Of a stretch of 64,000 bases of DNA, positions 31,726 through 58,859 are shown one piece after another (position 1 is the stretch's first letter; every line of letters starts with the position of its first letter). Made by a program: the position numbers and the translations under genes. Location of the stretch: NCBI GenBank assembly GCA_950295325.1, contig OX485806.1:43152001-43216000 (forward strand), given 5' to 3'. The stretch comes from Polytrichum commune (lineage: Eukaryota > Streptophyta > Polytrichopsida > Polytrichales > Polytrichaceae). Below the pieces are notes generated by a model, which made no database searches, was not told the DNA's origin, and saw only the letters and a program-made list of their open reading frames with translations.

Positions 31726-32060
31726 ACTAGCCTTGGCCACAAAGCCATCGTCCAACATTCGGTCCTCGGCAACTTGGCTTGGCTTGGTCCGCAAAGCCAA
31801 CTTTAAACATTTCGTCCGCGGGACAAATTGGTTTGGTGCCACAAAACAAATTTCTAATAATTTGTCCGCAAAACAAACATGTTTTGCCTTGGTAGCACAA
31901 AGCCACCTTCCCACACTCCGTCCGCGGCACGAACATGAATTGCCTTGGTAGGACAAACCCACCTCCCAACATTCCGTCCGCGGCACAAGTATGATTTGCT
32001 TTGGAAGCATAAAGCCACCTTTCAACATTCCGTCCGCGGCACCAACATGTTTTGCCTAAG
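31726..32060 (-). repeat. Minisatellite of about 50-57 bp within the gypsy element
   Basis: Units marked by CGTCCGCGGCAC recur at about 31,813, 31,863, 31,920, 31,977 and 32,032, each followed by an ATG-TTTTGCCTTGGTAGCACAAAGCC-like segment broken by small changes. The array sits between the protease remnant and gag. Such internal arrays are common in large gypsy elements. Confidence 0.8.
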
Positions 32061-32707
32061 TAAAATGGACCAAACAATTTGCACTCATTTCTTTGGGACC
32101 TACTTTGGCTAAAGTCACTTGTGGTGATGCGCCGCCGAACTTCTCTTTGGGACCATCGGCTTCAATGCTCTTGCAAACTTGATGGTCCCCACCATGTCCT
32201 CAAGAAGCCTTGGGGACTTAAACAAGGCATCCACCACCCGCTTTTAAAACCCCACCTAAAAGGATGCATTTCTTAGAAAGCTCGTCCGTTTTAGGTGTAT
32301 CCTTCATTTGTGCGTTTGAATAGCGCACATAGGCCTTAAGAGGCCCCGGGTGCCTCATTAGCACCAAATTCATTCCAACATCAATACCTTCTAAGCATTT
32401 CGAATTGGAATTTCAATCCAACATTAATGCCCTCCAAGGTTTTGGGTGCTTTCGGTATTCTAGGCCCCAAATATTTTTTGAGGTTTGCGGGAGCCCTTTT
32501 CAAAGCACTCCTCCATTTTCCTTACCAAATCCACCCTCATGCCCACCATTGTCATTGGAACCAATGGTATGGTCAAATTCCACTTGCACATGATCCTTGT
32601 TCCAATTTGAGCCTCACAACCTTTCGGAAACCCCGGGCTCACCATCATAACCCGCATTTTTGATAGCCATGTCTACCTCAAAGTGCTAGCTCAAATATTG
32701 GAACCCT

Positions 32708-32719
32708 GCTCTGATACCA
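32708..32719 (-). other. Primer-binding site of the gypsy element
   Basis: On the minus strand this reads TGGTATCAGAGC, complementary to initiator Met tRNA, two bases from the right LTR. It fixes the element's direction as minus. Confidence 0.95.
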
Positions 32720-32721
32720 AG

Positions 32722-33693
32722 TGTCGCAACCCTTGCTAGCCCCCTTGACAATCTTGCCAATTTTCAATTCTAGCAAAGGTTACGAGCGCTAACCATTCGC
32801 ATTCCGCCATGCTAATGGTTAGCTCCTCCTACCCCGGACCTTATAGTTCATAGGAGGGAACCAACCCTCCTACTTTGCTTTCGGGACTCACCCCTTAATC
32901 GGTAACCCATTTCTTGGATGTGGACTTCCATCCATGGAAGTCCAATCCTATGTTGATCATCGCGTTGCCGGAGCAACACTACAACAACCCGAACCATACT
33001 AGGCAGCTATGGCCTCACAATGGGCCAATGCCCATGGAGGCCGTGCCGTTCGGCCTCGGGTGGGTGAGGCCACACCACCTCACCCATATAAGCCTCTAGG
33101 ACTCTACGCGGGGCCCCTACCCCACCGTCAACCAACCTCTTGTCTCTCTACCAAGAGTTGGGGCCAAGTGGACATTTTCCCTTAGCCGCTGGGCCTAGAA
33201 GCCCCCACAGATTCAGACCATCATAACTTCCTTGTATGATATCTGATGCTAACACTTGACCACTCCATCTTCATCTACGCTTCATGTAGATGCCGATGGA
33301 CTCCTCACTTGCCCCATTCGGGCAAGTGGTGAGGAAGTTATGCCTGTTTGAACCTTGGCAGTCCCGGGAATCACTCCCAGGCACTGCTGTACCAGGGCGC
33401 TGTCCCGGGACAGCGCCCCACTCAAATGGCCATAACTCCTAGCTCACACCTCCGATTGAGGTGTTCTTGAGCATTCTAGAATCACCACGCCATGAGCTAC
33501 GCATAGCTCATGGCCTTACCCTCATGCCTCCTAGTCTCCGTGGGTGGGAGGCGTTCCCAACGCCCGGGGCCCTCACCCACACTAGGATCACTTGGGCCCT
33601 CTCACCAACGGCGCCACAAGTCCCGGGTGTCACTCCGGGGTCCCCCTTGTGCCCATGGTGTTTCGGCCACTCCTCATGGAGAGGTGCGCGACA
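32722..33693 (-). repeat. Long terminal repeat (5' LTR of the minus-strand element), 972 bp
   Basis: Same length and, as far as read, the same sequence as 26,632-27,603. The right flank begins with target repeat CAAAG at 33,694-33,698 and then the resumed MULE reading frame. Confidence 0.97.
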
Positions 33694-34659: not shown

Positions 34660-35099
34660 GGGAAAACTTAGTAGTGTGAGCGTAGAGCGGAAAGCAGAAA
34701 ATTTTGAGTTTGTTGGGTAATTTTAGGACAATGTGTGCCTATTTCCATGGAATTTATAAATAGTGTGAGGGCAATTTGTTGGAAAAGTACCCCATTCCCG
34801 TGGAGATTATAACGCATCTTAGTTCGAAAAACAAGTAGAACCTAAAGGCGTGAAAGAATGTATTTGTTATCAAAGATCTTATAGTCTAGGTTTGAAATGG
34901 TTTTATATTAAATTAGGGTTGACGTCAACAATTGAAATCAAACATCAACAAAACATATGGAAGGAATTGAATGGGGATTTGCAAAATGCATAAGAAAATA
35001 CAACAAATGAACTTAAAAAATATTTAAAAAAAACAATACATATGAGATAGAGTTTCTAAATGCACGAGGCGTAGTCGACTACTTGTACTACCATGACTA
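34660..35099 (+). repeat. Shared terminal/3'-flank repeat, copy A
   Basis: From GGGAAAACTTAGTA and GTGTGAGCGTAGAGCGG onward this segment matches 40,313-40,884 in order: TGCCTATTTCC-TGGAATTTA, ACCCCATTCCCGTG, TCTTATAGTCTAGGTTT, TATATTAAATTAGGG, TGACGTCA-CAATTGAA. It lies directly 3' of ParB-MTase copy A, as the second does for copy B, so the two genes were duplicated with this end. The sudden start, where the MULE frame stops, suggests a transposon terminus. Confidence 0.7.
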
Positions 35100-37075
35100 T
35101 CACGATAGTCTATCACTATCCTTGCCCTCCTCGGCCTCTATGTCTAGGAAATCCAATACTAGCTTATTGAAAGGTCGGATGCGACTAGGAGGTGGAGACG
35201 GAGCTTCCGCTAAAAGATTGGCAAGCTTAGCAGCATACGAAGGGAGCTCGAACGTCTTGGAAAGATTCGAACACATGCCTCGACGAATGATTGCGTTCTC
35301 CCCTGATACTCTGAACCCCCAAGCAAGAAGATTAAAAACAAGATGACACAAGAAGATGGGAAAAATGACATGAAGGTAAACATGGCAAAACATATAAAGC
35401 AAACTTACACACAAAGAAAACCGAATGCGCGTTTGGTCATCTTCTGAGGCGGATCAAAAATAGAGGTAGACGGTGGGACAACTGAGCAGGGAGTACGCGC
35501 AGGCTGGGAATCGCGCATGGAGAGTAGGATTATATTAAAAATGATGGGATCACTCTCAAGGGCCACAATATGCCGCTCAAGTGAGCGACATGCTGTAATC
35601 GAACCACCTAAAGCAAAGAGAGGGAAAATGTTAGTATGAAAACTAATGAAGAAAAAATAACGAAAAATTCAAAGTAATGATGATGCTGAAAAAAATGCGT
35701 ACCTACACCACACTGCCAGTCCATAATAACATCATTCTTGTCTGTGGGAGTAGCAAGGATGATAGAGAAGAAAACATGATGTTATTCACGAGCACTTTTC
35801 CAAGGTATCCCATCAGTACACATCGCTTGGCTCTTCTCATCGGTAAAGGCATTCAACCATCCATCTCACTGGAGGTTGTAACCATACTCTTGCATGGCCT
35901 CCTCATGCACTCTGAGAACATAATTAACACGAACAAGAACCTTGATGCTAAATTTTGGAGTCTGAAAAAATTAAAACGATTTCATAAGACTCGGAAGAAG
36001 TGAAATAAAATACAATACATAAGCGTAGTAAGATATAGAGAGTTGCTTACCACTCCAAAGGGGACCACAAGGGATTGGAGGTCCAAATCATTCATATCAA
36101 AACAATCTTCAGCGACGTAGAAATCGTAAGTGTATGCCCAATCAAAAACAGTCCCGGAAACAAAGGCATTTGCACAATGGGCAAGGACAAAGACACCATG
36201 ATCATAGAGGTTAGATTTCACAAATGCAAAAAGACACTCATAGTATAATTCATGGAGCTTGTTCCAAGCAGGAACATCGGTGGAGATGTTGGGCATGAGC
36301 AAATTCTCGGGAATGTCTGCGAAGAGCAAATCGAGGCCCTTGTGAATTGTAGTAAAGGTGTTCACATGGGAACGACCTGCCCCAACCTGCAATTAAAACT
36401 TCATGAGAAAACAATAGCAAGGAAAAAAAAGCAAACCAAAAGGAGAAAAGCCTGAAAAATGACGAAGGGAAAGATACAAACATTGGCAATGAACTCTTGG
36501 ATGCGGGTATATGCTGGAAGGGGACCTCCTGCAAGCTTAGAATCCAGCATGAGTTGTACCATGTCCACATTTTTTATAAAAGCAAACGTGTTGGGCGACT
36601 CCGAACAGGTGGCACTCGCATCCAAGAGGGCGGCCTTCCTCTTGCGATACAAGGAGAGAAGAGAAGTGCCATTGTGAGAAGGAATAACAATAGTTTGTGG
36701 ACAAAAGATTGAAGGAGTACTAGAGGGGGCAACTCATGGAGCAACGGAAGGAGTGCTAGATGGACTCCGTAGGAAGGTGGGTGGCTGAACAGGGGTCTTT
36801 GAAGCAGACCGAGTGACAAGGTGGAAAGAGGCTTAAGTGGCGGTATTATTTGCTCTGTCCTTTCCCTTTGGTGCCTTGGGCGGAGGAGGAGGAAGCTCAA
36901 CGATGTCGGGCTCCTCAAAAGGGACAATGTTGTCATCGGGAGCACTACTCACAAGGCTGGCAGAAAGAGGCTTTTCTTCCCCATGCACAAATTTTCCAGA
37001 ACAATCCAAGTACCATCCTCCAACCTGCAAGTGAGACTCAAGAAACTTGGTTGTTTACGTGGTCGTGTACACGTA

Positions 37076-37083
37076 GAGGCTAG
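37076..37083 (+). repeat. Target-site duplication of the MITE (left)
   Basis: GAGGCTAG is repeated exactly at 37,495-37,502. Eight bases is the hAT-superfamily length. Confidence 0.85.
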
Positions 37084-37494
37084 CACGGGGAGGTCACTTC
37101 ATTGTCAAGTTGACACCACGTGCGGACAAAGTTTGCTACCACTATATTACATGCCATATATAATTTTAAAATTTACAATATTTTTCCTACATATACATAA
37201 CCATTGATAGTATCTTTTATATATATTTTTTGAAATTTTTAGTCATCTTTATTTTTTTTTAGTAATAGTTTTAGTTCAATTTTATGTCATTCTAATTAGA
37301 AATGGTATGTTTTATGAACAAACAAATCATCAAATTTAGTTACCACTTTTAACTATGTCATAGGTACTGTGTATATCTATTCATGAAAAAACATTGATAA
37401 AATTTTGACCCATTTTGGTGGTGCATCTTACCAAAATAAGATTTTTTTTGGTCGCACGTGGTGTTCAACTTGACAATGGAGTGATCCCCCTGTG
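37084..37494. mobile_element. hAT-like MITE, 411 bp
   Basis: The terminal inverted repeats are about 40 bp: the left starts CACGGGGAGGTCACTTCATT and continues GTCAAGTTGACACCACGTGCG; the right, read inward, starts CACAGGGGGATCACTCCATT and continues almost identically. The interior is AT-rich and non-coding. The element interrupts the exon of copy A that encodes the segment before the WYLDCSG motif. Exact 8-bp flanking repeats support hAT transposase mobilisation. Confidence 0.88.
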
Positions 37495-38994
37495 GAGGCT
37501 AGAAAACACGTTCACCCTGTCTGAGAGGTAGGTGGGCAAGGAAGATGATGCCAATGCATTCTTTGCAACTAATTCTCTTATGATATAACTACAAAACAAA
37601 AAGAAAAATATAACCATGGGAAAGAGTAGGAAATGGAGTGCAAGAATGCAAGAAATGAAGTATACAAGAACAAAAATGGAGGATAAGTGCATTACCGATA
37701 GGTGACGCGCTTGATAGCCAGAATACGTCCTCGAACTCCAAGAGGTTACCACCTTTGGCAAAGGGGATGTCAGGGTTATCGCCGAGGTAAGGCTTGAAGG
37801 CTCTGTCCCAAGGAGAATCCTCTAGTGATCAACATACTCACGAGGACGTAAGATAGTTTCCGATGCGTCCCAATCGATATCGATGGTAAGATTGTCTTGA
37901 AATGTTTCAATCTGGACCGGGACTTATTTCTCCAACTGAAATGAGGGAGAGAGTGAGTGAAATTATATATGAAACAAGACGAATAAAAATAAAATTAAGA
38001 AGGCCAAGGAATGGATAAACCTGAGCCAAGAATGACGCCTTGTGAAGCCAGTCGTCCAAAGCCTTCTCCCTCATAGGCTTGTCGATGGGAAACTTGTTCT
38101 CCAACCTCTCACGAATGGAGGTGCTCCACCAATGAAGCCACTTGGTTTTTAATGAAACTTCGACTGAACATGTGACAATTTTTTGCAATTTTTCAATTGT
38201 CATGTCGGTCGAGGCGAATTCATTAAAGTGTCGGTCAATCTACGCACGTCCAAAAAAATGAAATGAGTTCAGGAGGATATACAAATGAAAGGATTATTTA
38301 TATAAAAGGAAACATGGAAGTGAAGAAGGGATACCTCGTAAAAGAAGTCCTCCCCATTGTCAGGGTGTGCGACCGAAATATATTTTTCAAATGTGCGTGC
38401 CCGAATACTTTTGATCGTCCTCTCATGGGCCTTGGACATGACATTCCAAATCTCAGTAGCAGTCCTCTCGGCAACCGGAGTGGTTTCACAGTAATGCCTC
38501 ACTCCAACGTCAGCTTGAGCCAAAATGTCTCTCTGCAAAAAATGACCTTGTGAGCAAATACAATCGGCATGAAAATGCAAAATGGAATGTAGGTAGGAAA
38601 ATGGAGAAGATGAAATATAAAATCATACCTTATAAAGAAATTTGACGAAGACATCCGCGGTAAGATTGTACCAAGTAGAGCGACTCTCCTTAATATTCTC
38701 GCATGCTTTGTAGTCAGTAGGAGAGATGAGATCCTTGAACGTCGATAACTCCAACCTCCCAAACGTATGAATTCGAATTAGCTTAGCAAGATTGTTCGCC
38801 TTCACGTAATCACACTCCGTAAACCTGAGAGAAAAAATATGAGAATCGGCCAATGAAAAGAACGGAGGAATAAAAAATATATGCTTACTAATTAATGTCA
38901 CTCATTGCGTTGAGGAATCTACTCACACACCCAAAAACAACAGTCCGCCATCCATCTCTCTCGCTACACACACACACTCAAATATCCTCCCAAC

Positions 38995-39140
38995 TCACAT
39001 ATTCTCACACTCCTCTCCCTCTCACATTGCACACCTCTCTCCCTCCCACCTGTCACACATCTCTCCCTTCCACCTCTCACACATCTCTCCACCCCACCTC
39101 TCACATTTCTCCACCCCACCTCTCACACCTCTCTTACCAC
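38995..39140 (+). repeat. Pyrimidine-rich CTCTCACAC-type repeat
   Basis: An imperfect array of roughly 20-23-bp units of the form CACCTCTCACACATCTCTCC. It lies just upstream of the ATG at 39,154, so it could be a leader/promoter CT tract of that ORF. Confidence 0.6.
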
Positions 39141-39153
39141 CCTTCTAGACACA

Positions 39154-40331
39154 ATGACACCCAGCAACAACCCAGTAGCCGCGAATCCAGAAGCAGTGCC
39201 CCGAATGCGAGGAGGATCGAACATCCAGGCAGTCCTGGCACGCCGACACCTAGGATCAGGCAGCAAGCTCAGTAGTAGCAGGCTCAGGAGTAGCGCCGAA
39301 GGCAAAATGGAGGAGAGAACAAGCGGAGGGCAACTCAACACCAGCACAGGTACGGGAGCGGGAGGCGCCAGCAAGCTCCACACCGGAATAAGGGCGAGAG
39401 CGGGAGAAGGAGGAGCCAGCAAGCTCTACACCGGTACAGGTGCTGGAGCGGGAGGGGGAGGAGCCAGAGAGACCACCAACGAAGCAGCCAACGGCTGGGA
39501 AGGAGGCGGCCCCATAATCGAGGTCCGGACCGGACAACAACTCCGGAGCACCAACAGCAAGCACCGTAGTAACACCAACACACGAAGTGCAGGCAGAAGG
39601 AGGGCACTTATTCAAGATTATAGTGATGATGAGGAAGAGATCGCCATACCACCTAGCCAACCAACATTTTTTAAGGAGAAAACCACACCTTACCATGATG
39701 CCGACATCGACATGCAACTCGACAATGTCACACCCGAGCATGGGGGAAGTTCCCTCCACATTTCAACCTCAAACGATGAGTACTTGGCCGCCCCCCGCCA
39801 AGCCGCCATGTCGCTCGACCAAATGGACATCATCAACCTTGATGAAGCAACACCTCCCAACAACCCGCACAAAAGCCCTAGGCTAGAGTTCGTGAAAGAC
39901 ACACAAAGCGCCAAACGTAGGAGGAGTGAAGTATTTGGTCATGCATTCAACTCCGACGCAAGCAAACTTTCAAACTGCGCACCAAAGAGGCAATTCCAAG
40001 CATTGACATTGTGTCACACATGTGGTTAGGCTTCTCAATACACGAGGCCATCGCTACACAAAGGGGTAAGGAAATCATCCATGAAACTCGTACCCATGAG
40101 GAATTTGAGAGACTAGGGACCCCCACAAATGAAGTCATAGAGTTCAAAACCATTAGACGTGCATTTCTGAGAGTACCACAAATATGTTATCCAAATGAGA
40201 GGCCGGATGCGGTACCCGGCAACCACCTCCACTTCACGCAAATTCCAAAGCAAGAAAAAATGGACCCCACCACCGGATTTTCCGAGGGCTTCCACATCAC
40301 CATCCGTTTTGAGGGAAACTCAAGTATGTGA
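39154..40331 (+). pseudogene. Uncharacterised element-borne ORF, one frameshift
   Basis: An ATG at 39,154 opens 291 codons. The N-terminal third is Gly/Ser/Thr-rich with two imperfect repeats of a GASKLxTGxxAxAG unit. Then comes a basic patch (AGRRRALI) followed by acidic YSDDEEE, a Pro/Ser segment and a second basic patch (AKRRRSE). The frame stops at 40,029, but a one-step change near 39,985 opens another reading that begins around IPSIDIVSHMWLGFSIHEA and ends at 40,331, where the shared terminal repeat begins. I do not recognise the family. The NLS-like and acidic patches suggest a nuclear protein; transposon ownership is inferred from position only. Confidence 0.45.
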
Positions 40332-40884
40332 GCATAGCTCGGAGAGCGGAGATTGGAGAGCGGAGATTTTCAAATTTGTTGGAATATTTTAGGGGAAGTC
40401 GTGCCTATTTCCGTGGAATTTAGTGATAGTTTGTCTTCAATTTGTCGAAAAAGCCACCCCATTCCCGTGTAAATAATAACCGAACCTATAGGCGTGGAAG
40501 ATAGTGTCTGTTATCAAACATCTTATAGTCTAGGTTTCGAATACGTTTATATTAAATTAGGGCTTACGTCATCAATTGAACATATGAGTTAAGCCTTAAC
40601 ACAAACATTCAAGCGGTATGGAATGTGGCCAAGAGTTAAAGTTCAACACAAACATTCAAACCATTCAAAGTCACTCACAACCTTAGCATCTCTCAAGTAC
40701 AACTAAAGTAGACAACCTTCAAAGTATACTCAACCCGTCCACCCAACCTATCTAGAGAATTGAAATCAAACACCAACCAACTTCAATAAGGGATTGAATG
40801 AGGTTTGCAATAGCCACATAAAAATTGAAGAAATAAACTTATAAAGTAAAATCAATACAAACAAAATGGAGGTTTGAGGCGTAG
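40313..40884 (+). repeat. Shared terminal/3'-flank repeat, copy B
   Basis: Counterpart of 34,660-35,099: begins GGGAAACTCAAGTA, then TGTGAGCATAGCTCGGAGAG, and matches through TTATATTAAATTAGGGCTTA. It contains an additional 150-200 bp before the gene's stop codon compared with copy A. The AGCGGAG word is repeated (about 40,345-40,372), as in the inverted copy at 59.4 kb. Confidence 0.7.
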
Positions 40885-43289
40885 TCAAGAACTAGGGCTA
40901 CCATGTCTATCACTATCCTCACCTTCCTCGGCCTCTATGTCTAGAAAATCCTCTATTAGTTTGTTGAAAGGTCGGATGCGACTAGGAGGTGGAGACGGAG
41001 CTTTCGCTAAAAGATTGGCAAGACTAGCAGCATAGGTTGGGAGCTCGAACGTCTTGGAAGGACTTGAACTCATACATGCGTTCTCCCTTGGCGCTCTGAA
41101 CCAATAAGCAATAAGATTAGAAACAACATGACACACAAAGATGGGAAAATGACAAGAACGTAAATATGAGAAAACATAGAAATAAAACTTACGTACAAAG
41201 AAAACCAAATGCGCGTTTGGTCATCTTCTTAGGAGGATCAAACATAGAGGTGGACGGTGTGGCATTTGAGCGGGGAGGTCGCGAAGGTTGGTTTTCACGC
41301 ATGGGGAGTAGTATCGCATTAAAAATCACTGGGTCACTCTCAAGGGCCACAATATGCCGCTCAATGGAGCGACACGCTGTAATCGAACCACCTACACCAC
41401 ATTGCCAGTCCATAATAACATCATTATTATCGGTGAGAGTAGCAAAAATGATAGAAAAAAAAACTTGATGCTTTTCGCGAGCACCTCTCCAGGGTATCCC
41501 ATCACTGCGCATTGTTTGGCTCTTCTCATCGGTGAAAGCATTCAACCATCCATCTCGCTAGAGGTAGTAACCATACTCCTTGGCGGCCTCCGGTCGCACT
41601 TTCAGAACGGAGTTAGTACGACCAAGAACCTTGATATTGAATTTGTAAGTCTGAAAAAATGACAACGATTTTATAAGAATCGGAATAAGTAAAATGAAAA
41701 ACAAAACAAAAATGGACTAGGAGATGGATAGTTGCTTACCACTCCAGAGGGGTCCACCAGAGATTGGAGGTCCAAATCAGCCATTCCAAACCAATCTTCG
41801 GCGATGTAGAAGTCGTAAGTGTGTGCCCAATCGAAAACCATCCTATAAACACTTGCACTCGCACAATGGACAAGGACAAGGACGCCATGATCATAGAGGT
41901 TAGATTTTGCAAATGCAAAAAGACACTCATAGTAAGAATCATGGAGCTTGTTCCATTCAAGAACATCCGTGGAGATGTTGGGCACCGGCAAATTTTCGGG
42001 AATGTCCGCGAAGAGGAAATCGAGGCCCTTGTGAAATGTAGAGGAGGTGTTCACACGGGAACGACCTTCCCCGGCCTGCAATGAAAAATTCATGAGAAAA
42101 AATGAAGAAGGAAAAACAAAAGCAAACCAAACGGAAAGGAGTCTGATGAATGCCAAAAGAAAACATACAAACCTTGGCAATGAAATCTTGGATGCGCGTA
42201 TATGCCGGGAGGGGACCTCCTGCAAGGTCGGAATCGAGCATGAGTTGTACCATGTCCACATTTTCGATGAGGGCAAGCGTGGTAGGGGAATCCGAAGAGG
42301 TGGCACTCGTATCCAAGAGGGCGGCCTTCCTCTTGCGAGGCAAGGAAAGTAGAGAAGTGCCACTGTGTGAAGGAGTAGCAATAGTTTGTGGACAAGATGC
42401 GGAGGAAGTGATAGAGGGGGCAGCTGATGGAGCAACTGATGGAGCAACGGAGGGAGTGCTAGATGGACTCTGTAAAAGGGTGGGTGGTTGAACAAGGGTC
42501 TTTGAGGCAGACCGAGTTGATTGAGTGCCGATATTCCTAGCTCTTCCCTTTCCCTTTGGTGCCTTGGGCGGTGGAGGAGGAAGCTCAACAATGTCGGGCT
42601 CCTCAAAGGGGACATAGGTCACCTCGGGAGCACTACTCACAAGGCTGGAAAAAAGAGGTTTCTCTACCTCAGGCACAAATCCTCCAGAACAATCCAAGTA
42701 CCATCCCCCAGCCTGCAAGTGAGAGTCCGAAAACTTGGAAACTTGCACGGGCGTATACACACAAAGATCGGAGTTGACATCGACCCAATCTACAAGGAAG
42801 GTTGGCAAGCACGAAGAAGGCAAAGCATTCTTCACAACGAGCTCACGGTGGATGAACCTGTAAAATGAAGAACATCATAAACAAAAACGGTGGCGGGATA
42901 GAAATGAAACAAAAACTATATTAACTAAAAGAAAACTCAAAATATTACCGGTAAGCGACGCGTTTGATTGCTATGGGGCCTTCCTTAAAATCCATGAGAT
43001 CAAGGCCTTTGATAAATTTCAAATCTCCCTTGTTGTCAAAATAAACCAGAAATGCCTTGTCCCAAAGATTCAGCCTCCAATGCTCAACATAATTGGCCGG
43101 TTGATAAATATCTTCCGGGGAACTCCAATCGATTTCAACGGAACACTCATTTTCAAATGAAGCTATCTCACCCTCAACCCCCTTCTCCAACTATGACAAC
43201 AAAGAAAATAGTAAGGAGATGGTACTTGATAACATACTCCACTCTAACTTGAACCATATATCAAAAACAAAATTCAATTTTGACAACAT

Positions 43290-45700
43290 AGGCCTCTAAC
43301 ATGGCCCCTTAAGACATTAGAAATCTGAACTTAGCTTATTAACTAGAAATCTGAAACCTTAACCTGGCCACTTATTAGGCTGAAAATTTGAATTTAGCTT
43401 ATCAACTACAAATCTGAAACCTCAAACATGGCCACTTATTAGGCTCATAATTTGAACCTTGCTTATCAACTACAAATCTGAAACCACTAACATGGCCACT
43501 TATTAGGCTCATAATCTGAACCATGCTTATCAACTACAAATCTGAAACCGCAAACATGGCCAATTATTTCCCTCATAATCTGAACCTAGCTTATCAAGTA
43601 CAAATCTGAAACCTCTAACTTGGCCACTTATTAGGCTCACAATCTGAACCTTGTTTATCAACTACAAATCTAAAACCTCTAACATGGCCACTTATTAGGC
43701 TCATAATCTGAACCTTGCTTATCAACTAAAAATCTGAAACCTCTAACTTGGCCACTTATTAGGCTCATAATCTGAAACCACTAACATGGCCACTTATTAG
43801 GCTCATAATCAAAACCTTGCTTATCAAATACAAAGCTGAAACCTTACACATGGCCTGCTAAAACCCCACTTACCCCACCCTCTCGGAATCAAGAAGGTCC
43901 CCCCCCTTGTCCAAATATTTATTGGACCTCAAAACTAGACTGAAAATCTGGAATTAGATTACATACTAGAAATCTGAACCCTCTAACATGGCCACATATT
44001 AGGCTAATAATTTGAACCTAGCTCATTAACTACAAATCTGATACCTTAACATGGCCCACTAAAATCCCATTTACCCCACCCTCTCGGAAATGAGAGGCCC
44101 CCCCCTGTCCAAATATTTTTTTGACCTCAAAATTAGATTGAAAATCTGGAATTGCTTACATACTAGAAATCTGAACCCTCTAACATGGCCACTTATTTCC
44201 CTCATAATCTGAACCTTGCTTATCAACTACAAATCTGAAACCTCTAACATGGCCACTTATTAGGCTCATAATCTGAACCTAGCTTATTAACTACTAATCT
44301 GAAACCACTAACATGGCCACTTATTAGGCTCATAATCAAAACCTTGCTCATCAAATACAAAGCTGAAACCTTACACATGGCCCGCTAAAACCCCACTTAC
44401 CCCACCCTCTCGGAATCGAGAGGGTCCCCCCCTGTCCAAATATTTAGTGGACCTCAAAACTAGACTGAAAATCTGGAATTAGATTACACACTAGAAATCT
44501 GAACCCTCTAACATGGCCACATATTAGGCTCAAAATCTGAACCTAGCTTATCAACTACAAATCTGAAACCTCTCACTTGGCCACTTATTAGGCTCATAAT
44601 CTGAACCTAGCTCATTAACTACAAATCTGAAACCACTAACATGGCCACTTATTTCCCTCATAATCTGAACCTAGCTTATCAAGTACAAATCTGAAACCTC
44701 TCACTTGGCCACTTATTACGCTCATAATCTGAACCTTGCTTATCAACTACAAATCTGAAACCGCAAACATGGCCACTTATTTCCCTCATAATCTGAACCT
44801 AGCTTATCAAGTACAAATCTGAAACCTCTAACTTGACCACTTATTAGGCTCATAATCTGAACCTTGCTTATCAAGTACAAATCCGAAACCGCAAACATGG
44901 CCACTTATTTCCGTCATAATCTGAACCTAGCTTATCAACTACAAATCTGAAACCTCTAACTTGGCCACTTATTACGCTCATAATCTGAACCTTGCTTATC
45001 AACTACAAATCTGAAACCGCAAACATGGCCACTTATTACGCTCATAATCTGAACCTTGCTTATCAACTACAAATCTGAAACCGCAAACATGGCCACTTAT
45101 TTCCCTCATAATCTGAACCTAGCTTATCAAGTACAAATCTGAAACCTCTAACTTGACCACTTATTAGGCTCATAATCTGAACCTTGCTTATCAAGTACAA
45201 ATCTGAAACCTCTAACTTGACCACTTATTAGGCTCATAATCTGAACCTTGCTTATCAAGTACAAATCTGAAACCGCAAACATGGCCACTTATTTCCGTCA
45301 TAATCTGAACCTAGCTTATCAACTACAAATCTGAAACCTCTAACTTGGCCACTTATTAGGCTCATAATTTGAACCTTGCTTATCAACTACAAATCTGAAA
45401 CCTCAAACTGGCCACTTATGAGACTCATAATCTGAACCTTGCTTATCAACTAGAAGTCTGAAACCTCAAACATGGCCACTTATACGACTCATAATCAGAA
45501 CTTAGTTTATATTCTAGAAAACTGAAACCTTAACCTGGCCACTTATTAGGCTGAAAATTTGAACTTAGCTTATTAAGTTGAAATCTGATACATCAACCTG
45601 GCCACTTATTCGACTCATCATCTGAATTTAGCTTATCTAATTCAAATCCGAAACCTCAACATGGCCCACTAATACCCCACTATCCCCTTGAAATCCAAAA
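43290..45700. repeat. 64-bp minisatellite array in an intron of copy B
   Basis: Some 35-odd head-to-tail units of the type AACATGGCCACTTATTAGGC plus TCATAATCTGAACCTTGCTT plus ATCAACTACAAATCTGAAAC; adjacent CATGG marks at 43,427, 43,491 and 43,555 give a 64-bp period. Near 43,880, 44,090 and 44,400 longer units intrude, carrying CTCTCGGAATCGAGAG-like hairpin words, the type that dominates the array at 48.6-51.1 kb. The array fills the intron 43,191-45,774. Confidence 0.92.
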
Positions 45701-45967
45701 CCTTGGCATGACCCACTCGAATCCCACATGTAGAATGGAAAGGAAGAAACGGAGTCAAAATACTGAGGATGCACCTGAGCCCAGAAAGAAGCTTTGTTGA
45801 GCCAGTTGTCGAAGACTTTCACCCTAAGAGGGAGATCGGAGGGAAATCTATTCTTATCCTTGACCTCGGGAGGAGAGTTCCACCAACGTAGCCACTTGGC
45901 CTTGAAGTGGGAATCTACATGTGCGGTGGCCACCTTTTGAAGTTTCTCAATTGTCATATCAGTGACC

Positions 45968-45972
45968 AGGAA
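45968..45972 (+). repeat. Target-site duplication of the solo LTR (left)
   Basis: AGGAA here is repeated at 46,911-46,915. Confidence 0.9.
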
Positions 45973-46910
45973 TGTCGCGCACCTCTCCATGAGGAGTGCC
46001 CGCAACACCATGGGCACAAGGGGGACCCCGGAGTGACACCCGGGACTTATGGCGCCATTGGTGAGAGGGCCCAAGTACTCTTAGTGTGGGTGAGGGCCCC
46101 GGGCGTTGAGAACGCCTTTCACCCACGGGGACTAAGAGTCATGAGGGTAAGGCCATAAGTTATGAGTAGCTTATGGCGGTGGAATTCTAAAATGCTAAGG
46201 AACACCTCAATCGGAGGTGCTAGCTAGGAGATATGGCCATTTGAGTGGGGCGCTGTCCCGGGACAGCACCCTGGGACAGCAGTTACCTGGGAGTGGTGCC
46301 CGGGACTGCCAAGGTTTGAAGAGCCATAACTTCCTCAATACTTCCCCGAATGGGGCAAGTGAGGGGTCCATCGGCATCTACGCAAAGAGTAGGTGACGAT
46401 AGAGTGGTCGCTTAATAGCATCAGACATCATATGTAGAAGTTATGGTGGTCTGAAGCTGCTGGGGGGTTTCTAGCCCCAGCGGCTAAGGGAAAATGTCCA
46501 CTTGGCCCCAACCCTTGTAGAGAGACAAAAGGATACTTGATGGTGGGGTAGGGGCCCCGCCCAAAGTCCTAGAGGCTTATATGGGTGAGGCGGCTTAGCC
46601 GACCGACCCCCCCGGAGCATACTTGGCAATGTGCTCCGGGTAGTTGTAGTGTTGTTTTGGCAACACGATGATCAACTCAAGAGTGGACTTTCATGGATGG
46701 AAGTCCACCTTAGCCATTGGCTACCTACTACGGGGAGAGTCCCGAATGCATGTGTAGGAGGGTTTGGTGACCTAGCCATGAGCTTGAAGGTCCGCGGTTT
46801 TGGGAGCTAACCATGCATGTGCGTGGGATGTGCAGGTTAGCGCTCGTGGCACTTGCTAGGTTGGAAAGGCGGTCAAGCTAAGTGAAGGAAAACTAGCAAG
46901 GGTTGCGACA
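45973..46910 (+). mobile_element. Solo LTR of the gypsy family, 938 bp
   Basis: Begins TGTCGCGCACCTCTCC and ends GGTTGCGACA: the reverse complement, with many substitutions, of the LTRs at 26.6 and 32.7 kb. Shared landmarks include GGGCGCTGTCCCGGGACAGC and the GGGGCCCC-rich part. Flanking AGGAA repeats show that a whole element inserted and then lost its interior by LTR-LTR recombination. It splits the exon 46936-45775 of copy B after the IDRHFSTFL segment. Its divergence indicates an older insertion than the intact element. Confidence 0.93.
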
Positions 46911-48599
46911 AGGAAAGTGGAGAAATGACGGTCAATCTGCCACATAGAAAAAAGATAAGTAAAATAAAGATAAAACAAGCACGGCAAAATTCATAGGAGG
47001 ATGAAAAACTAAACCAAAAAACAAAGATAGGAGAGACACCTCGTTGAAGAAATCATCACCGTTGTCCTTGTGGGCAACGGAAATGAACTTCTCAAAGTTC
47101 CGAGAACGAATGGTTTTGATCAACCTATCTTGGGTTTTTGTCATAGCATTCCAAATATCGGTAGCAGTTCTCTGAGCCTCCGGAGTAGCCTCACGATATA
47201 ACCTTGCCGCGGTATCAGCCGCGTTGGATATCTCCCTCTGAAACAAACAAAAATAAGGATAAGAAGCGCACATAGACGTGGGAGAAGGATGGGAGTGGAA
47301 AATGTACACAAAATTTACCTTGTATAAGAACTTGACGAAGACATCTAATGTCAGGGGATACCAAGTAGGACTCTTCTCCATCTTGGACTCACACATCTTG
47401 TAGTCCGAAACGAAAAGGAGGTCTTTAAACTCCTCTAGCCTCATCTTTCCAAACGTGCGAATGCGAAGTAACTTGGCGGGGAGGTTGTCCTTAACATGGT
47501 CATGCTCCGTGGATCTAGACAAATAAAATGTTAGAGGAAAAAATGCGAACAAACAAAAGAGAGGATCAACAACATTAAATGTTGAACTCACCAGTTGATG
47601 TCATTCATAGCATTAAGGAAGAGAGCGGTGCAATTTCTTGCATCCACCACAATACAATCAGCCCATATATGCCAATTTTTGTCCAACGGGTGATGATTGT
47701 TGATGTGCCTCCACCAAGCTGTCAATCGATGGTTCCCTTCCCACACGAAGAACATTTTGCCAACAAAGTAAGCAAGGTCGGAGTCTCTTTGGAGTATGAC
47801 ATCAAACTCTGCATTGGCCTCCTGCCATAATGGACTCCAGGAGGACTTGATGTCATCGGAGACATCAAGAGGCTCATCGAGGTTGTTGTATGCTGAGACG
47901 TACATAGCTCGGTCACCATCACGATACCCCATCACAAACTCATTCTCCAAACGAGAAACATCAACGTCGTTGATTGGCCGAACAAGAGGAAGAGTCCGCA
48001 ACCGACACAATAGAATTGAGAAACGAGACTTCCCTAGAGGCTTGAATCGAATCCGCAGAATCACGGTGTTGGAGTCTTGTTTTTGCGATCTACGAATCGT
48101 TAACTGTGCTTCAGCTGGATTCGACTCAGCAAAAGGTTTTATGCAGTCGGGTACAGCCGGAACATCAATCTACAACATAAGAGAAGCAAAGCATAAGAAA
48201 AAAACTCTAAACCCAGAATGTGAATGAAGCATTGATACAATACAAAAACACCAGTATCAGATGTACGAATCAAACACCTCTTCTTGTGAGATGTCATCCA
48301 AAGCCGCATGGCTAGCCTGAGGAGGCGACAATATAACAACCCCATCCGCCATGTATTGCACCCGTGCTACAGGAAGAGCCAAAGACTCCGATGCCTGCAT
48401 GCACAAAATACACCTTAAGACACTAGAAAACACAACAAAGCATAGTCTTTGCAAAATTAGAAACCTAAAACCTGCCCCTGTAATCCTACATGACCCACCC
48501 TGTCGATTCCAAGAAAAATCCCCTTATTCACTATATCTCCAAATCAGAATCCACTATTGACAACAAAGAACTCAACCTGGGCCCCTCACACCCACCCTT

Positions 48600-51140
48600 T
48601 GGTTTCCGAGAGGGTCTAAACCTTGGACTCATAATTTGATTTTAACGTATATACTAGAAATTTGAACCCTCTAACATGGCCACATATTACGCTCAAAATC
48701 TGGACCTAGCTCATTAACAACAAATCTGAAACCACTAACATGGCTACTTCTTAGGCTCATAATCAAAACCTTGCTTATCAAATACAAAGCTGAAACCTTA
48801 CACATGGCCCACTAAGACCCCACTATCCCCACCCTCACGGAATCGAGAGGGTCCCCCCCCCTGTCCAAATATTTAGTGGACCTCAAAACTAGACTGAAAA
48901 TCTGGAATTAGCTTACACACTAGAAATCTGAACCCTCTAACATGGCCACTTATTAAGCTAATAATCTGAATCTAGCTCATTAACTACAAATTTGATACCT
49001 TAACATGGCCCACTAAAACCCCACTTACCCCACCCTCTCGGAAACGAGAAGCCCCCCCCCTTGTCCAAATATTTAGTGGACCTCAAAACTAAACTGAAAA
49101 TCTGGAATTAGCTTACACACTAGAAATCTGAACCCTCTAACATGGCCACATATTATGCTCAAAATCTGAACCTAGCTCATTAACTACAAATCTGATACCT
49201 TAACATGGCCCACTAAAACCCCACTTGCCCCACCTTCTCGGAAACCAGAGGCCCCCCCCCTTGTCCAAATATTTAGTGGACCTCAAAACTAGACTAAAAA
49301 TATGGAATTAGCTTACACACTAGAAATCTGAACCCTCTAACATGGCCAAATATTAGGCTAATAATCTGAACCTAGCTCATTAACTACAAATCTGATACAT
49401 TCACATGGCCCACTAAGACCCCACTATCCCCATCCTCTCGGAATCGAGAGGGTCCCCCCCCTTGTCTAAATATTTAGTGGACCTCAAAACTAGACTGAAA
49501 ATATGGAATTAGCTTACACACTAGAAATCTGAACCCTCTAACCTGGCCACATATTAGGCTAATAATTTGAACCTAGCTCATTAACTACAAATCTGATACA
49601 TTAACATGGCCCACTAAAACACCACTTACCCCACCCTCTCGGAAACGAGAGGCCCTTCCCCCTTGTCCAAATATTTAGTGGACCTCAAAATTAGACTGAA
49701 AATCTGGAATTAGCTTACATACTAGAAATCTGAACCCTCTAACATGGCCACATATTAGGCTCAAAATCTGAACCTAGCTCATTTACTACAAATCTGATAC
49801 CTTAACATGGCCCACTAAAACCCCACTTGCCCCACCCTCTCGGAAACGAGAGCCCCCCCCTGTCCAAATTTTTTTTTGACCTCAAAATTAGACTGAAAAT
49901 CTGGAATTAGCTTACATACTAGAAATCTGAACCCTCTAACATGGCCACATATTAGGCTCATAATCAAAACCTTGCTTATCAAATACAAAGCTGAAACCTT
50001 ACACATGGTCCACTAAAACCCCACTATCCCCACCCTCTCGGAATCGAGAGGATCCCCCCCCCCCGTCCAAATATTTAGTGGACCTCAAAACTAGACTGAA
50101 AATCAGGAATTAGCTTACACACTAGAAATTCGAACCCTCTAACATGGCCACATATTAAGCTCAAAATCTGAACCTAGCTCATTAACTACAAATCTGAAAC
50201 CACTAACATGGCCACTTATTTCCCTCATAATCAAAACCTTGCTTATCAAATACAAAGCTGAAACCCTTACACATGGCCCACTAAAACCCCACTATCCTCA
50301 CCCTCTCGGAATCGAGAGGGTCCCCCCCCCTGTCCAAATATTTAGTGGACCTCAAAATTAGACTGAAAATATGGAATTAGCTTACATACTAGAAATCTGA
50401 ACCCTCTAACATGGCCACATATTAGGCTCAAAATCTAAACCTAGCTCATTAACTACAAATCTGATACCTTAACATGGCCCACTAAAACCCCACTTGCCCC
50501 ACCCCCTCGGAAACGAGAGCCCCCCCCCCCTTGTCCAAATATTTAGTGGACCTCAAAACTAGACTGAAAATCTAGAATTAGCTTACATACTAGAAATCTG
50601 AACCCTCTAACATGGCCACATATTAGGCTCAAAATCTGAACCTAGCTCATTAACTACAAATTTGAAACCACTAACATGGCCACTTATTTCCTTCATAATT
50701 TCCTTCAAAACCTTGCTTATCAAATACAAAGCTGAAACCTTACACATGGCCCACTAAGACCCCACTATCCCCACCCTCTCGGGGTCCCCCCCCCCTGTCC
50801 AAATATTTAGTGGACCTCAAAACTAGACTGAAAATATGGAATTAGCTTACACACTAGAAATCTGAACCCTCTAACATGGCCACAGATTAGGCTCAAAATC
50901 TGAACCTAGCTTATCAACTACAAATCTGAAACCTCTCACTTGGCCACTTATTAGGCTCATAATCTGAACCTTGCTTATCAACTACAAATCTGAAACCTCT
51001 AACTTGGCCACTTATTAGGCTCATAATCTGAACCTAGCTCATTAACTACAAATTTGATACCTTAACATGGCCCACTAAAACCCCACTTGCCCCACCCCCT
51101 CGGAAACGAGAGGCCCCCCCCCCCTTTGTCCAAATATTTA
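48600..51140. repeat. 200-bp higher-order satellite array 5' of copy B
   Basis: Units of about 200 bp carry TGTCCAAATATTTAGTGGAC, AACATGGCCCACTAAAACCC, a run of C and the word CCTCTCGGAATCGAGAGG, which can form an 8-bp stem with a GAAT loop. The C-tract/hairpin mark recurs at about 48,838, 49,039, 49,238, 49,438, 49,638, 49,838, 50,038, 50,307 and 50,508. Larger steps reflect one extra 64-bp unit. It shares units with the array in 43.3-45.7 kb and lies just upstream of the first recognised exon of copy B, probably within its 5' intron. Confidence 0.9.
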
Positions 51141-51149
51141 GTGGATCCA

Positions 51150-51415
51150 CCCTTCTCCCGTTCTTCCTCTATCCGTTCCAGTTCCTCGTTCCTGCTAGAC
51201 GTCCCTGTCTCTGCCTCTCCGCCCGTCTTGCTCAAATCTGTTGGTTGCTCACTTCCTTGTGTACAAGATTGCTCCTTCTTCCTCAGTTCTCTCCGTCTCC
51301 TTTGTTTTGAATTGCTAAAACTTGTGCCTCCCTTTATTTTCTTTCTCTTTCTTCCAGGATCGGCTGTGGAGACTTGATTATTTCCTGGTTGTGAACCCTT
51401 TGAGTGGTCCACCAC
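51150..51415 (-). other. Possible 5' exon: Lys/Arg-rich, then Glu-rich segment
   Basis: Immediately beyond the satellite, the minus strand is open with a nuclear-localisation-like GRKRKKIKGG and KQRRRRELRKKEQ, followed by acidic NEELERIEEEREKG. It has no ATG but begins after a plausible acceptor (CCCGCAG). Its composition and position suggest an upstream exon of copy B, with the array as intron. The donor (AAGG|GTGGAT) gives a phase that does not obviously match the exon at 48,394, so this remains a guess. Confidence 0.35.
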
Positions 51416-54165: not shown

Positions 54166-54639
54166 TCACCGAAGGGCTTGTGTGATACTTTTAGGCTCCC
54201 TCGAAAGGGGGTGGCCCAAAAGTACCACACTTGTTCCTTCATGTGTGCGTCTCGGTTTCCCAATACTCGTCTCTCTCCTATCCTCTTCTATTAGGGCATC
54301 GCACTCACATAATAACTCGTTCATTTGCTTGTATTGTTCTTTATATTGCCAGTGCTTGAGGGTTAGGGTATCCCTCTTTTTGGCAGCCGTCCCTTGTTTT
54401 CCCTTTTTGGCATCCTCCCCCTACTCATTTTTTATATACATTAGTTCCTCGAATTCTGTTCCTTCGGTGATGCATATGGTGACATCACAACGTTTGTCTT
54501 CACCATTCTTCTTCCTTATAAATCTTTGCATCTTTGTGCATTTACGTTTCTGTTTTTTTGCCTTCATGGCTTCCAGCTCAATGGCCGAACTTCGTTCCAA
54601 TGCCAAGATGTCCCTATTCTCTTCCCCATTGGTGCACAT
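54166..54639 (-). pseudogene. Small charged ORF beside the MULE transposase, one amber codon
   Basis: From the ATG at 54,639 the minus strand reads a basic, helix-forming protein (ELEAMKAKKQKRKCTK, ICITEGTEFEELMYIKNE). It meets a TAG, then continues in the same frame with GEDAKKGKQGTAAKKRD, LKHWQYKEQYKQMNELL and EEDRRETSIGKPRRTHEG to TGA at 54,166. Without the TAG it would be 157 codons. High charge and coiled-coil-like heptads suggest an accessory DNA-binding or oligomerisation protein of the element. It overlaps, on the other strand, the first codons of the transposase frame, so the two probably share a divergent promoter region. Function unknown. Confidence 0.45.
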
Positions 54640-57600
54640 GGTATTTTTGTTGTCTCAGAGCTTCATCTTAGCATTAGGTTCTCTCTTCAAGTTAATACAA
54701 TATGGGTAGATCGTGAGATCTTCAATGATACTGGATTGCTCGTTCATACATTCTATGAGCCCTCCAAGGTAACTGACAATGGCAATGTAGTGTGGGAACT
54801 TGGCGCGGGAAAGTATAGGGTTTGGGGCTGGCCAAATTCTCGGATGGGAGTGTCAACAGAACTCCATGCTCCTCTTCGATCTTCCACTGCTGACTTTAGC
54901 ACACCTCCGGTAGTAAGTGTCAAGACCGAGCCTGATATAGACAACGTTGTAGACTTGTCTGATTCTTCGACTGAAGATGTATCTATGAGGAAGGCTAATG
55001 TTCATGATTCCCCTCCTTTGTTTCCCTCTGATTCCTTTGTAACGCCTTCACCTTCTCGCTATGTTCCTTTATCTCCTTCCGTACCGTCTACGTCCAAACC
55101 TCCTCCACCTATTGTTCAATGTCTTCGTCGTCTAGGTTCTATACCCGGTAGTAAAAGCGTCCTCAAGAAAATAGATTACGATAAGATCAAAATCCAAGAG
55201 GTTAATCACCTCCCCCTTCGTTTCGATGGTACCCAGTTATTTGTCCTCCCTGCACCAGAAGTCTCTTCATCTCTTTCCAGGTCCAGGTCCATGGACGGCA
55301 TGGACAAACAATATGATGGCCATGTTTGGACGAAGACTCAGACCACCAACATTACAAACGACGTTGGCCTTCTATTTCGTTCCTCTACCTGTGTTGGCCA
55401 TCTCCAATGCCAAAACACTTGTTGTGATTTCCTTCAACGCGCCCATCGTATCTTTCATGTCAACGACACGGAATTTGATGGTTTCACTACTCAGCCTTTC
55501 CCTCTCTCTGGCATTGTGCCATCCGGATCTACTCTTGTGTGCAGGATCTACAAACAGCCTCCCAAATGCATTGCATTTTGCGAGGCGAAGATTTTCTACG
55601 TCCATGGGAAGAATTTCTCCCAAAGAGCATGCATTCATATCGGAAACCATCAACATCCAGTGAAGGTTGGGGACTGCACAGACAGTCGGAAGCGCATCAA
55701 TGCTCTTCTCGAGGAGCACGTTGAGCGTACGCCTCAGGCCACGTACAGCAAGATCGTCCTTGAAGCCAGCAAGGACATTGTTGGTGAGTTCCTCCTTTCT
55801 GAAAATAGTGAGAAACACCGTCTCCTCTCCTTAACAGAGCTCGAACCTGTGTTTGAGAGCTGTAGAGGGTTGAATTCCCCAAACCTTCGATCTAAGGTTA
55901 CCTCTTTCAAATTTTTGCGGAGGTTCGGTGTTATGGATGGCATCGCAAAGCTCCCAGGCGTTAGCAATTGGGCCTACGTCCAACGGAACCAATTCCCAGG
56001 ACAAGGTGACGATGCCGACAAGGTGTTCGTCTTCAAGATGTCCGAGGTTGGTCCTGGAAGCGGGGTGGATTTGGTTCGTCGGATGCAACCGGGTGGGGAC
56101 CTTGAGAACGCCTGGATTATGTCCGATCACGTCAAGCGGGTCAAAGGGTGGACCACCATGGCCGCTCATGTCTACGATGGGACTTATCAACGGGTCATGA
56201 CCATTTCATGTTGTGATTTCCAATCGGAGGATAAGGATGCCCAAGTGCTCTTCTGGCAGAACCTCAACCATGTCATGGCCCGCCACGGTATCCCGCATCC
56301 TAACTTTATTGGCTTCATGGCGGACAGTGCGCAAGCCAATTGGAACGCTGTGCGCATTGTGTATGGTTCAAGAGATCCCAAAGTTCCTATGGAGGGCCGT
56401 GAGCGCACTTGTTTTTTCCATTGGAAACAGTCGCTCGAGAAACATACGAAATCCTACATAAAGCATGAGTTACAAGACCAACATAGACACCTTTGCCTTC
56501 AATATCGCAATGCGTCCTCTATGGCAGAGGCGGAGACTAGGTACCTAGCTATCAAGGCTTGGTGGGCATCATCGAATTGTACAAGTGAGGACGGTCTCAA
56601 GCACCTCCAGCTATGGCTTGCTTTCTGGCACTTCCGCTACCTTCAATGGGGTGGTTTCATGGAACTAGTAAATCCCCTTCATGATTCATAATTGTCTTTT
56701 ACTGGATTTAGTTTCCTCTCTATGTGCTCCCTCTAATACTCCCTCTGCACTCCCCAATCAGGAAAAGGTTCTGACTCAAGACCAGTTGGCTGAGATGCCG
56801 TCGTGCAATCTTGCGGAGTCCGTCCACAACAAGTGGCTTCAGGCCTCGGGCAACAAGGGTGGAGATTTATACGTGGCTACGGTGGACGACTACATTCGCG
56901 CCTTCCTACAAGTTGTTGCATACTACACATTCCTTAAAGGTGGAGTTGGCGGAGATGGTCCAAGCAAAGAGGAACTCAAGCTCAGGGGTGCTCAACGTCG
57001 AACTCAGCGTACTGGTGACCCCACAGTGTTGCAGAAGGTCTTGCTCGACATGCCCGGTGGGGAAGAGTTTTGCACTCGCGATCCACACCTTGAGGGCGCC
57101 GAGGTGTTTGGATCGCAAAAACGAAGACCTGACACTCCAATTGGTGATGATGGCGAGACCCACCGCCCCGATACCGTGAACTTCTCACGCCCTCGTCCCG
57201 GTAAGCGAGTCACTCGATCTCAGCCAGAAACCCTACCTACTATCATTGAGGAGTGTTCCCCGTCTGTACAAGAGGTTCAGGTGCCTTCACCTGCAGGACT
57301 TGGTTTCCATCGTGTCACCGCAGTGCAAGAAACCAAAGTAGATGTCTCTCTTTGGCATATTGCCCGCATACCCTATACATCAGGGAAGTCTTGTTGGGCT
57401 AATCATGCGGGCACGAAGAAAAAGTGCTCTGCAAGAATCGTCATCAATAATAAGAGCGTCCTTGCGCCTACCTACACCGGTATGTGGCATCATTACAAAC
57501 TCCAATCGATGAAGCGCACGGACTTCGTCTTCTGCCCCGACGACATAGAGCGTTGCGTAAAGGGCCCTCGTCGGAAATGGGTCATGCCGTTCTCTGATGG

Positions 57601-58219
57601 TCAAGAGAAACCTCCCATTCCCCCAATCTGGCCCGTCAAGATTGGTACGAACCTCACCCGTTCGGAGATGTTCGCCCTTGAGAACGCAGGTTTTCAACTC
57701 CCACCAAAGGAGCGCATCACACCGACTCGACTCTTCACCAACTCCGCTCCCCCACTGGATATGTCTGGAATCCGTATTCCGGAATTCCCAGACTTCATCC
57801 CTCCGACAAGATTGTCCAAGGTTGTTCGGCGATCCAGCAGCGCACCTTCTGCAAAGCAGACGCAGATGGTTGCCTCTGCTGAAGCTATGCATGGTACTGT
57901 TTTGAAGTTAACTATGATCCCTCAACCGGGACTTGGCTGCATTATCACACTGCAGTCCAAGTCAGAACCCCAACCCCCTATATACCAGGTGACAGTGAGT
58001 TCTTATCCAGAGTGCAATTGCGCGAACTTCGTGGATATGATTTCCAAGTTCGGCCGCAAACGCAATCCTTATCAGAATTGTAAGCATTTGTATTACATTT
58101 TCATCAAGGTTTCCAATTTGGATCTCGAAGTGAATTTGTTCATTCACGCCCCGACATTTAGCTTCAACGAAGTCAAACCCATCCTTGAAGGGGGTCTTTT
58201 GACACAACCTACTTCCTAG
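54526..58219 (+). CDS. MULE-type DDE transposase with SWIM zinc finger, two exons
   Basis: Cut-and-paste transposase. Exons 54526-56667 and 56762-58219 (intron 94 bp, CTA|GTAAAT ... AATCAG|GAAAAG). The N-terminus contains VNTIWVDREIFND and YRVWGWPNS, then acidic Ser-rich sequence. A Cys-rich GCM/WRKY-like region (STCVGHLQCQNTCC, about residues 288-301) and IHIGNHQHPVKVGD follow. The DDE region has WIMSDHVKRVKGWTTM (about 531), FMADSAQANWNAV (about 598) and RTCFFHWKQSLEKH; I could not assign the third acidic residue. Exon 2 has ESVHNKWLQASGN, and near 58,009-58,090 a SWIM finger, ECNC ... NCKHLYYIF (CxC...CxH). The frame is uninterrupted, so the protein may be active. The start is uncertain: before residue about 60 the frame overlaps an opposite ORF, and the true ATG may lie elsewhere or on a missed exon. 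Confidence 0.8.
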
Positions 58220-58848: not shown

Positions 58849-58859
58849 TGTGTGCAAGT

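Follow-up and report, generated by a model that had tools for sequence, protein, structure and literature searches.

A transposon accessory gene encoding ParB-like and methyltransferase-like domains in a probable land-plant genome

The 64,000-nucleotide stretch of Polytrichum commune DNA analysed here (assembly GCA_950295325.1, contig OX485806.1, positions 43,152,001 to 43,216,000; hereafter the window) contains a spliced minus-strand gene, copy A (48394-40886), which joins a ParB/sulfiredoxin-like domain to a methyltransferase-like domain. An earlier note on this DNA, made from the sequence alone, had read it as an acquired plant family that might modify DNA or RNA or have been domesticated. 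The ParB-methyltransferase gene is the accessory gene of an abundant, large DNA transposon, as indicated by its linkage to a transposase-like gene, its near-identical dispersed copies, and their common termini and target duplications. That this transposon accessory gene combines folds of the ParB type and the methyltransferase-like type is almost certain. The explanation as a whole, a Mutator-like transposon whose accessory protein is inferred to recognize its own element via palindromes, is given a probability of roughly 0.85; taken by itself, the proposition that the palindromes let the protein act on its own element falls somewhat short of even odds.

The partner of the ParB-methyltransferase gene is a plus-strand transposase-like gene at 54445-58216, which consists of two open frames (54445-56688 and 56672-58216) and lies head-to-head with copy A. 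Six copies of the dispersed tier (c1-c6, here called young) were fetched with their flanks; over the ParB exon they share 63% identity with copy A, and they are mutually 96.8-99.7% identical over long stretches. The transposase-like gene is complete in c3 (83% amino acid identity) and c5 (89%); c1 and c4 carry partial or split versions, and in c2 and c6 the fetched DNA stops before the gene does. In c5 its two ranges can be read without a stop for 739 and 500 residues, and the DNA of the window from 54496 to 59106 is 89.7% identical to this copy. A search of the genome for the transposase-like gene, in which 98 copies were scored of 1993 candidates, showed 67 of the 98 to have a ParB exon as head-to-head neighbour no more than 30 kb away, with a tail-to-tail one in two cases and one on the same strand in a single case, compared with a mean of 0.54 and a maximum of 3 under random placement (lengths assumed for contigs C5 and C6). 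On a by-eye reading, the transposase-like proteins presumably contain DDE- and SWIM-like residues; the Mutator-like transposase domain PF10551 does not appear when they are searched against Pfam under default filters up to E<=10.

All six young copies end in CTCACATACTTGAGTTTCCC, and the transposon terminus in the window, GGGAAACTCAAGTATGTGAGC (40313-40334), ends all six young copies as well as all five close copies fetched (with at most 5 edits in the close ones). Both ends were found for c2, c4 and c5, which measure 19.4, 13.1 and 16.2 kb, and each of these three is flanked by a 9-10-bp target duplication as read by eye (GTTCATTTGA, TTATTTAAGT and GTGTAAATC, respectively). Left ends were not located for c1 (cut by a long terminal repeat, LTR), c3 (truncated) and c6 (no match in the fetched piece). 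The element ends are imperfect terminal inverted repeats, with a core, TATGTGAGCGTAGAGCGGAGAGCGGAG, common to both ends of c5. In the window, the other terminus is placed approximately at 59430-59465 (complement GGACGACATTTGTACGTGTGCG), giving an element of ~19 kb that runs from the terminus at 40313 through the ParB-methyltransferase gene and the transposase-like gene to a second end near 59465. The element may be classed as Mutator-like by its 9-10-bp target duplication, a length inside the 9-11 bp of Mutator-like elements; VANDAL elements are also Mutator-like.

Copy A comprises ten exons, whose borders follow GT-AG and whose phases fit together, save that joining exons 2 and 3 makes a stop, and has a coding capacity of ~1,080 residues counted from exon 1. 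Exon 1 (48278-48394; acceptor CAG, donor GT) has a 90-92% identical counterpart in six of the seven other close copies examined, and the protein start may lie in further upstream exons. Exon 2 (47592-48169) encodes the ParB-like domain; no known domain was found in exons 3 (47319-47513), 4 (47040-47237), 5 (45775-46936) and 6 (42949-43190). Exon 7 (42173-42857) encodes a linker rich in proline, serine and threonine, exons 8 (41740-42075) and 9 (41193-41650) the methyltransferase-like domain, and exon 10 (40886-41095) a C-terminal tail with the stop codon. The peptides quoted in the earlier note were all recovered on the minus strand in the order it gave, namely FFVWEGNHRLTAWW and ALFLNAMNDIN in exon 2, FADIPEN and DHGVLVLVH in exon 8, and DWQCGVGGS and HIVALESDP in exon 9.

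Two further copies lie on the minus strand of the window. Copy B (34660-38890, with a terminus at 34660) retains exons 3-10 with several stops and an exon 2 reduced to its end, and shows 61% amino acid identity in exon 4. Copy C (60581-61042) is a truncated ParB exon alone, belonging to another element. Copy A itself is a broken relic, non-functional as it stands, because exon 5 is split by a solo LTR, the joining of exons 2 and 3 makes a stop, and exon 9 contains an in-frame TAG. The solo LTR (45973-46910, minus strand; 938 bp, ends TGTCGC..GCGACA, 5-bp target duplication TTCCT) leaves the coding parts 46936-46911 and 45972-45775, and is 79.9% identical to the LTRs at 26632-27603 and 32722-33693. 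These bound an LTR retrotransposon (26632-33693) and share an identical 300-bp stretch; its family, the source of the solo LTR, also occurs inside young copies c1 and c3. An intron after GVG, present in copy B and in young copies c2 and c5, is absent from exon 9 of copy A (41650-41193); its loss probably took place in the A lineage. The earlier note had mentioned neither the solo LTR and the TAG, nor copies B and C, nor the transposon partner gene.

The genome of origin was searched over 407.8 Mb in 64 contigs, with 150 ParB exons scored of 1264 candidates and 150 copies of exon 8 scored of 955, numbers that agree with the GT-AG exons in describing a spliced and amplified gene, as had been proposed. 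The size of this genome and an arginine decarboxylase exon in the window indicate a plant. For 101 of the 150 ParB exons, exon 8 follows downstream in the same orientation at no more than 12 kb (median distance 2,654 bp); it lies upstream on the strand of the ParB exon in 3 of 150 and on the opposite strand in none, and random placement gave a mean of 0.38 pairs and a maximum of 3 (lengths assumed for C1, C5, C6 and C7). This arrangement supports the view, likewise put forward earlier, that the ParB and methyltransferase exons form one gene. Searches with single exons gave, for the ParB exon, 271 relatives at a threshold of E<=1 (120 of them listed) and, for the methyltransferase exons, 78 at E<=10 (weakest 4.5e-5), more than chance would give and mostly exon-sized fragments; the full-length joined exons as query found no database relatives at E<=1e-3, and scans of IMG/VR and GTDB genomes found no close relatives. 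For the idea of a giant-virus or phage insertion, the IMG/VR and GTDB scans returned no close relatives and the phage tblastn scan no real match, with no search aimed specifically at it.

Differences between copies are skewed towards synonymous sites, with proportions of synonymous (pS) and nonsynonymous (pN) differences of 0.76 and 0.27 for exon 2 of copies A and C, and of 0.73-0.80 and 0.22-0.30 for exons 3-5 of copies A and B. Because synonymous divergence between A and B differs sharply along the gene, exons 3-5 being at or near saturation and exons 8-10 much closer (synonymous divergence, dS, 0.24-0.54), the two copies look mosaic, through recombination or conversion.

The ParB/sulfiredoxin-like nature of exon 2, proposed in the earlier note, was borne out by an AlphaFold2 model and a fold search. 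A single-sequence run gave a predicted local distance difference test score (pLDDT) of 35, and supplying an alignment of relatives as input raised the best model to 82.0. The G-x-H/R-type motif expected at the strand-helix turn is present, with G145 in 86 of 91 alignment rows, N146 in 89 of 91, H147 in 91 of 91 and R148 in 82 of 90. A tblastn search of exon 2 against phages gave no real match. Identification of exon 2 as a ParB/sulfiredoxin-fold domain is supported at the level of a predicted structure.

For the permuted methyltransferase-like domain also proposed earlier, the order of parts, motif I and the profile matches stood, and the catalytic motif IV did not. The motif IV region (exon 8) precedes motif I (exon 9), as in beta-class amino-methyltransferases. 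The motif I pattern D-x-x-x-G-x-G (DWQCGVGG in copy A) and the acidic residue of motif II (in ALESD) are kept, with D81 in 28 of 30 rows, G87 in 49 of 51 and E104 in 26 of 27, and with G85 in 29 of 41 or more rows, a set that includes rows reading intron at this position. One relative, P0005, matches the solved structure of DpnA from Helicobacter pylori (5hfj) with an E-value of 4.2e-4. Among the 78 relatives, seven show similarity to a PHROG methyltransferase family (best E 2.4e-4), and unrelated PHROG families were also matched from E 0.008 upward. A hidden Markov model (HMM) of 45 phage-type methyltransferases, assembled from 5 phage genes selected for a weak resemblance to copy A and 41 of 80 chosen IMG/VR loci, minus one with stops (L048), matched copy A with P 1.1e-9 and copy B with P 2.8e-10. 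The same model scored below 1e-3 for 25 of the 78 methyltransferase relatives and for none of 120 ParB-exon proteins; among 4740 shuffled decoys, 5 came under this value (none below 1e-4). This test is partly circular because it was seeded by weak matches to copy A; the PHROG and DpnA matches are independent of it. The HMMER decoy test was used in place of an hhalign shuffle control, and the hhalign scores were discarded, as column shuffles equalled or exceeded the observed score in 12 of 200 cases for exon 9 and 4 of 60 for exons 8 and 9 together, some being absurdly high.

At the place of motif IV, the family reads D-[I/V]-P-E-N, a change from D-P-P-Y to D-[I/V]-P-E; D is invariant over the 52 rows, P occurs in 46, and E in 48, replaced by K in three and T in one. 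In known beta-class members, the aromatic residue of motif IV stacks on the flipped base. The test for a catalytic (D/N/S)-P-P-(Y/F/W) failed, the aromatic residue being gone in nearly all relatives seen, which tells against the ordinary modifying enzyme envisaged earlier. In c2 and c6, the matched exons 2-10 contain no stop save one in the exon 9 match, exon 1 being unmatched. The altered motif is not limited to decayed copies, because in c2 and c5 the stop of the exon 9 match falls in an intron and FADIPEN is retained. On sequence grounds, the domain encoded by exons 8 and 9 is homologous to the beta-class enzymes, yet fails their catalytic-motif test.

The role of the domain could then be sought in two directions. 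One, tentatively entertained, is a catalytically dead module that binds SAM (S-adenosylmethionine) or DNA and aids ParB binding, for example to block silencing or to assist transposase assembly; such a module would suit a domain whose motif IV aromatic residue is gone in the relatives seen and whose remainder is conserved, whereas the conservation of motifs I and II suggests that SAM is still bound. The other is a true N6-adenine or N4-cytosine DNA methyltransferase that marks its own element despite D-[I/V]-P-E, in keeping with the retained motif I, the acidic residue of motif II and the invariant Asp of motif IV, and with the self-modification suggested by the authors of PMC12477816, in its passages on algal proteins. 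A plain, catalytically active enzyme of this kind is nevertheless doubtful, because the aromatic residue of motif IV has been lost.

Candidate target sites lie close to the gene. Young elements, as examined in c5, contain between the two divergent genes tandem arrays whose units hold the perfect palindrome GAGGCCTCGGATCCGAGGCCTC. The 18-bp core of this palindrome (18-22 bp) occurs 22-46 times per young element piece and not once in the 15-22 kb of flank per copy, in all six copies. In the window, tandem repeats of ~64 and 200 bp occupy intron 5 (43257-45675), with three units carrying a CCCTCTCGGAATCGAGAGG-like inverted repeat and one exact CTCGGANNCGAG, and the same repeats upstream of the gene (48505-51160) carry eight exact CTCGGANNCGAG sites; the diverged repeats of copy A carry CCCTCTCGGAATCGAGAGGG-like sites. 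With 0.02 strand matches expected in the window, the shared form CTCGGANNCGAG reaches 21, of which 12 represent six perfect palindromes read on both strands. Six palindrome sites, CTCGGATCCGAG, are found upstream of copy C (61613-62706); beside this copy, ~107-bp tandem repeats run from 62901 to the window end at 64000. Sites picked by the core show a conservation of 0.97, compared with 0.58-0.70 in their flanks. ParB relatives typically bind inverted repeats, and the palindrome may be the binding site of the ParB-methyltransferase protein. That it serves instead the transposase or a host factor (in replication, recombination or promoter function) is a possibility of lesser weight; the position between divergent genes could serve either side, and nothing decisive opposes this alternative except the binding habit of ParB relatives.

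In the preferred reading, a transposon accessory protein that recognizes its own element, the ParB domain would bind the inverted repeat that recurs in the DNA of its own element, and the putative SAM-binding domain would act at the bound repeats, by an unusual methyl transfer or by non-catalytic binding. The outcome would be a sequence-specific recognition of the element that counters host silencing or regulates the divergent promoters, much as VANC acts for VANDAL. A bolder version, unlikely as it stands, is a parS-like system of a land-plant transposon, in which a spliced ParB protein binds dozens of palindromes and its D-[I/V]-P-E SAM-binding partner labels copies or shields them from silencing. 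The idea of a host gene family, acquired as a ParB-methyltransferase, domesticated and amplified by ordinary duplication, could draw on the protein-level constraint and the many stop-free ParB exon copies, and is rejected as very improbable on the common termini and target duplications, the near-identical dispersed copies and the fixed head-to-head linkage to a transposase-like gene with which this gene travels.

Several observations weigh against the transposon accessory reading or parts of it. Only one of the five AlphaFold2 models of exon 2 was good (82.0), the other four scoring 46.4-54.5, and no PDB fold match to the model passed 1e-3. Sequence-profile searches of Pfam, NCBIfam and PDB matched no ParB family, and the ParB assignment rests on fold. 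In Pfam, no methyltransferase family passed the cut-off (N6_N4_Mtase best, E 0.17, 12.3 bits versus 26.7), and the motif IV alignment of exon 8 is weak alone, six of 200 column shuffles scoring equally high. No transposase family appears among the Pfam matches of the transposase-like proteins. Among the matches listed, 49 of the 150 ParB exons have no methyltransferase exon within 12 kb, and 31 of the 98 transposase-like copies have no head-to-head ParB exon within 30 kb. Of the three two-ended copies, one (c4) lacks matches to exons 8-10 and another (c5) is interrupted by a stop in exon 7, and the window element shares no target duplication between its 40313 end and its other end. The abundance of the palindrome is ambiguous because tandem duplication multiplies any sequence contained, and in repeats anchored by their flanks, the palindrome bins (0.82-0.86) are not clear of their neighbours (0.66-0.87).

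ParB-methyltransferase accessory genes are already known from algal transposons. Passages of PMC12477816 describe the accessory protein of Ectocarpus Sola1-1_Ec32 (ParB-like and N4/N6 DNA methyltransferase, 1104 aa), cite similar proteins for green and red algal transposons, and suggest that the accessory protein binds and modifies its own transposon. Compared by description rather than by sequence, the Ectocarpus protein and the window gene agree in uniting both domains in one large protein (1104 versus ~1,080 aa), in residing in a large DNA transposon, and in lying on the strand opposite the transposase. They differ in that the gene described here has 9-10-bp target duplications (another transposon type), a probable land-plant host and the D-[I/V]-P-E motif; the palindrome arrays found here are not mentioned in the passages on Sola1-1_Ec32. 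The full-text literature search found, in the parts of the sources seen, no land-plant case of a ParB-methyltransferase transposon, with the proviso that Iyer 2011 and Petroll 2025 (green and red algae) may hold one. What is new is the probable land-plant host, the different transposon type, the altered motif IV and the palindrome arrays.

Fusions of ParB to a DNA methylase are also exemplified by a protein of Mycobacterium phage Vincenzo, named DNA methylase, and by a B. cereus ParB-methylase in a passage of PMC5512222; the likeness covers the joining, not the domain order. Unlike these, the gene described here is spliced and eukaryotic, has an altered motif IV, and has no close IMG/VR or GTDB relative. 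The VANC protein of Arabidopsis VANDAL, an anti-silencing protein described in the abstract of PMC5735166, causes methylation loss at targets that often form tandem repeats. Both systems, likened by description with no homology claimed, have a transposon accessory protein and tandem-repeat arrays in the element, and they differ in that VANC lowers methylation, whereas the function of the ParB-methyltransferase protein is putative. The Marchantia N4-methylcytosine methyltransferase, according to passages of PMC8885841, acts genome-wide and has no additional N- or C-terminal domains; by description, it is likewise a bacterial-type amino-methyltransferase in a plant, in contrast to the ParB fusion described here. 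The known range of ParB-methyltransferase accessory proteins of transposons is extended from algae to a probable land plant and a further kind of transposon. The iterated palindrome beside the gene provides a concrete candidate target. It becomes testable whether a transposon writes epigenetic marks on its own DNA or blocks them there, and the D-[I/V]-P-E motif poses the question whether a methyltransferase fold has been re-purposed.

Of the 150 scored ParB exons, 50 lie on contig C4, which holds the window; 44 of these fall at ~41-59 Mb, a number with stops, and this part of the contig is possibly a low-recombination region. At 38914-40331 (plus strand) lie open frames of 371 and 133 aa without a Pfam match, the second entering the terminus at 40313, and these may represent a gene cut by the transposon insertion. 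A weak DDE_Tnp_4 match at 2430-2798 (plus strand; E 0.003, under the cut-off) is perhaps a Harbinger-type remnant. A host gene is represented at 16101-16631 (plus strand) by an exon encoding an arginine decarboxylase helical bundle (Pfam E 1.1e-13).

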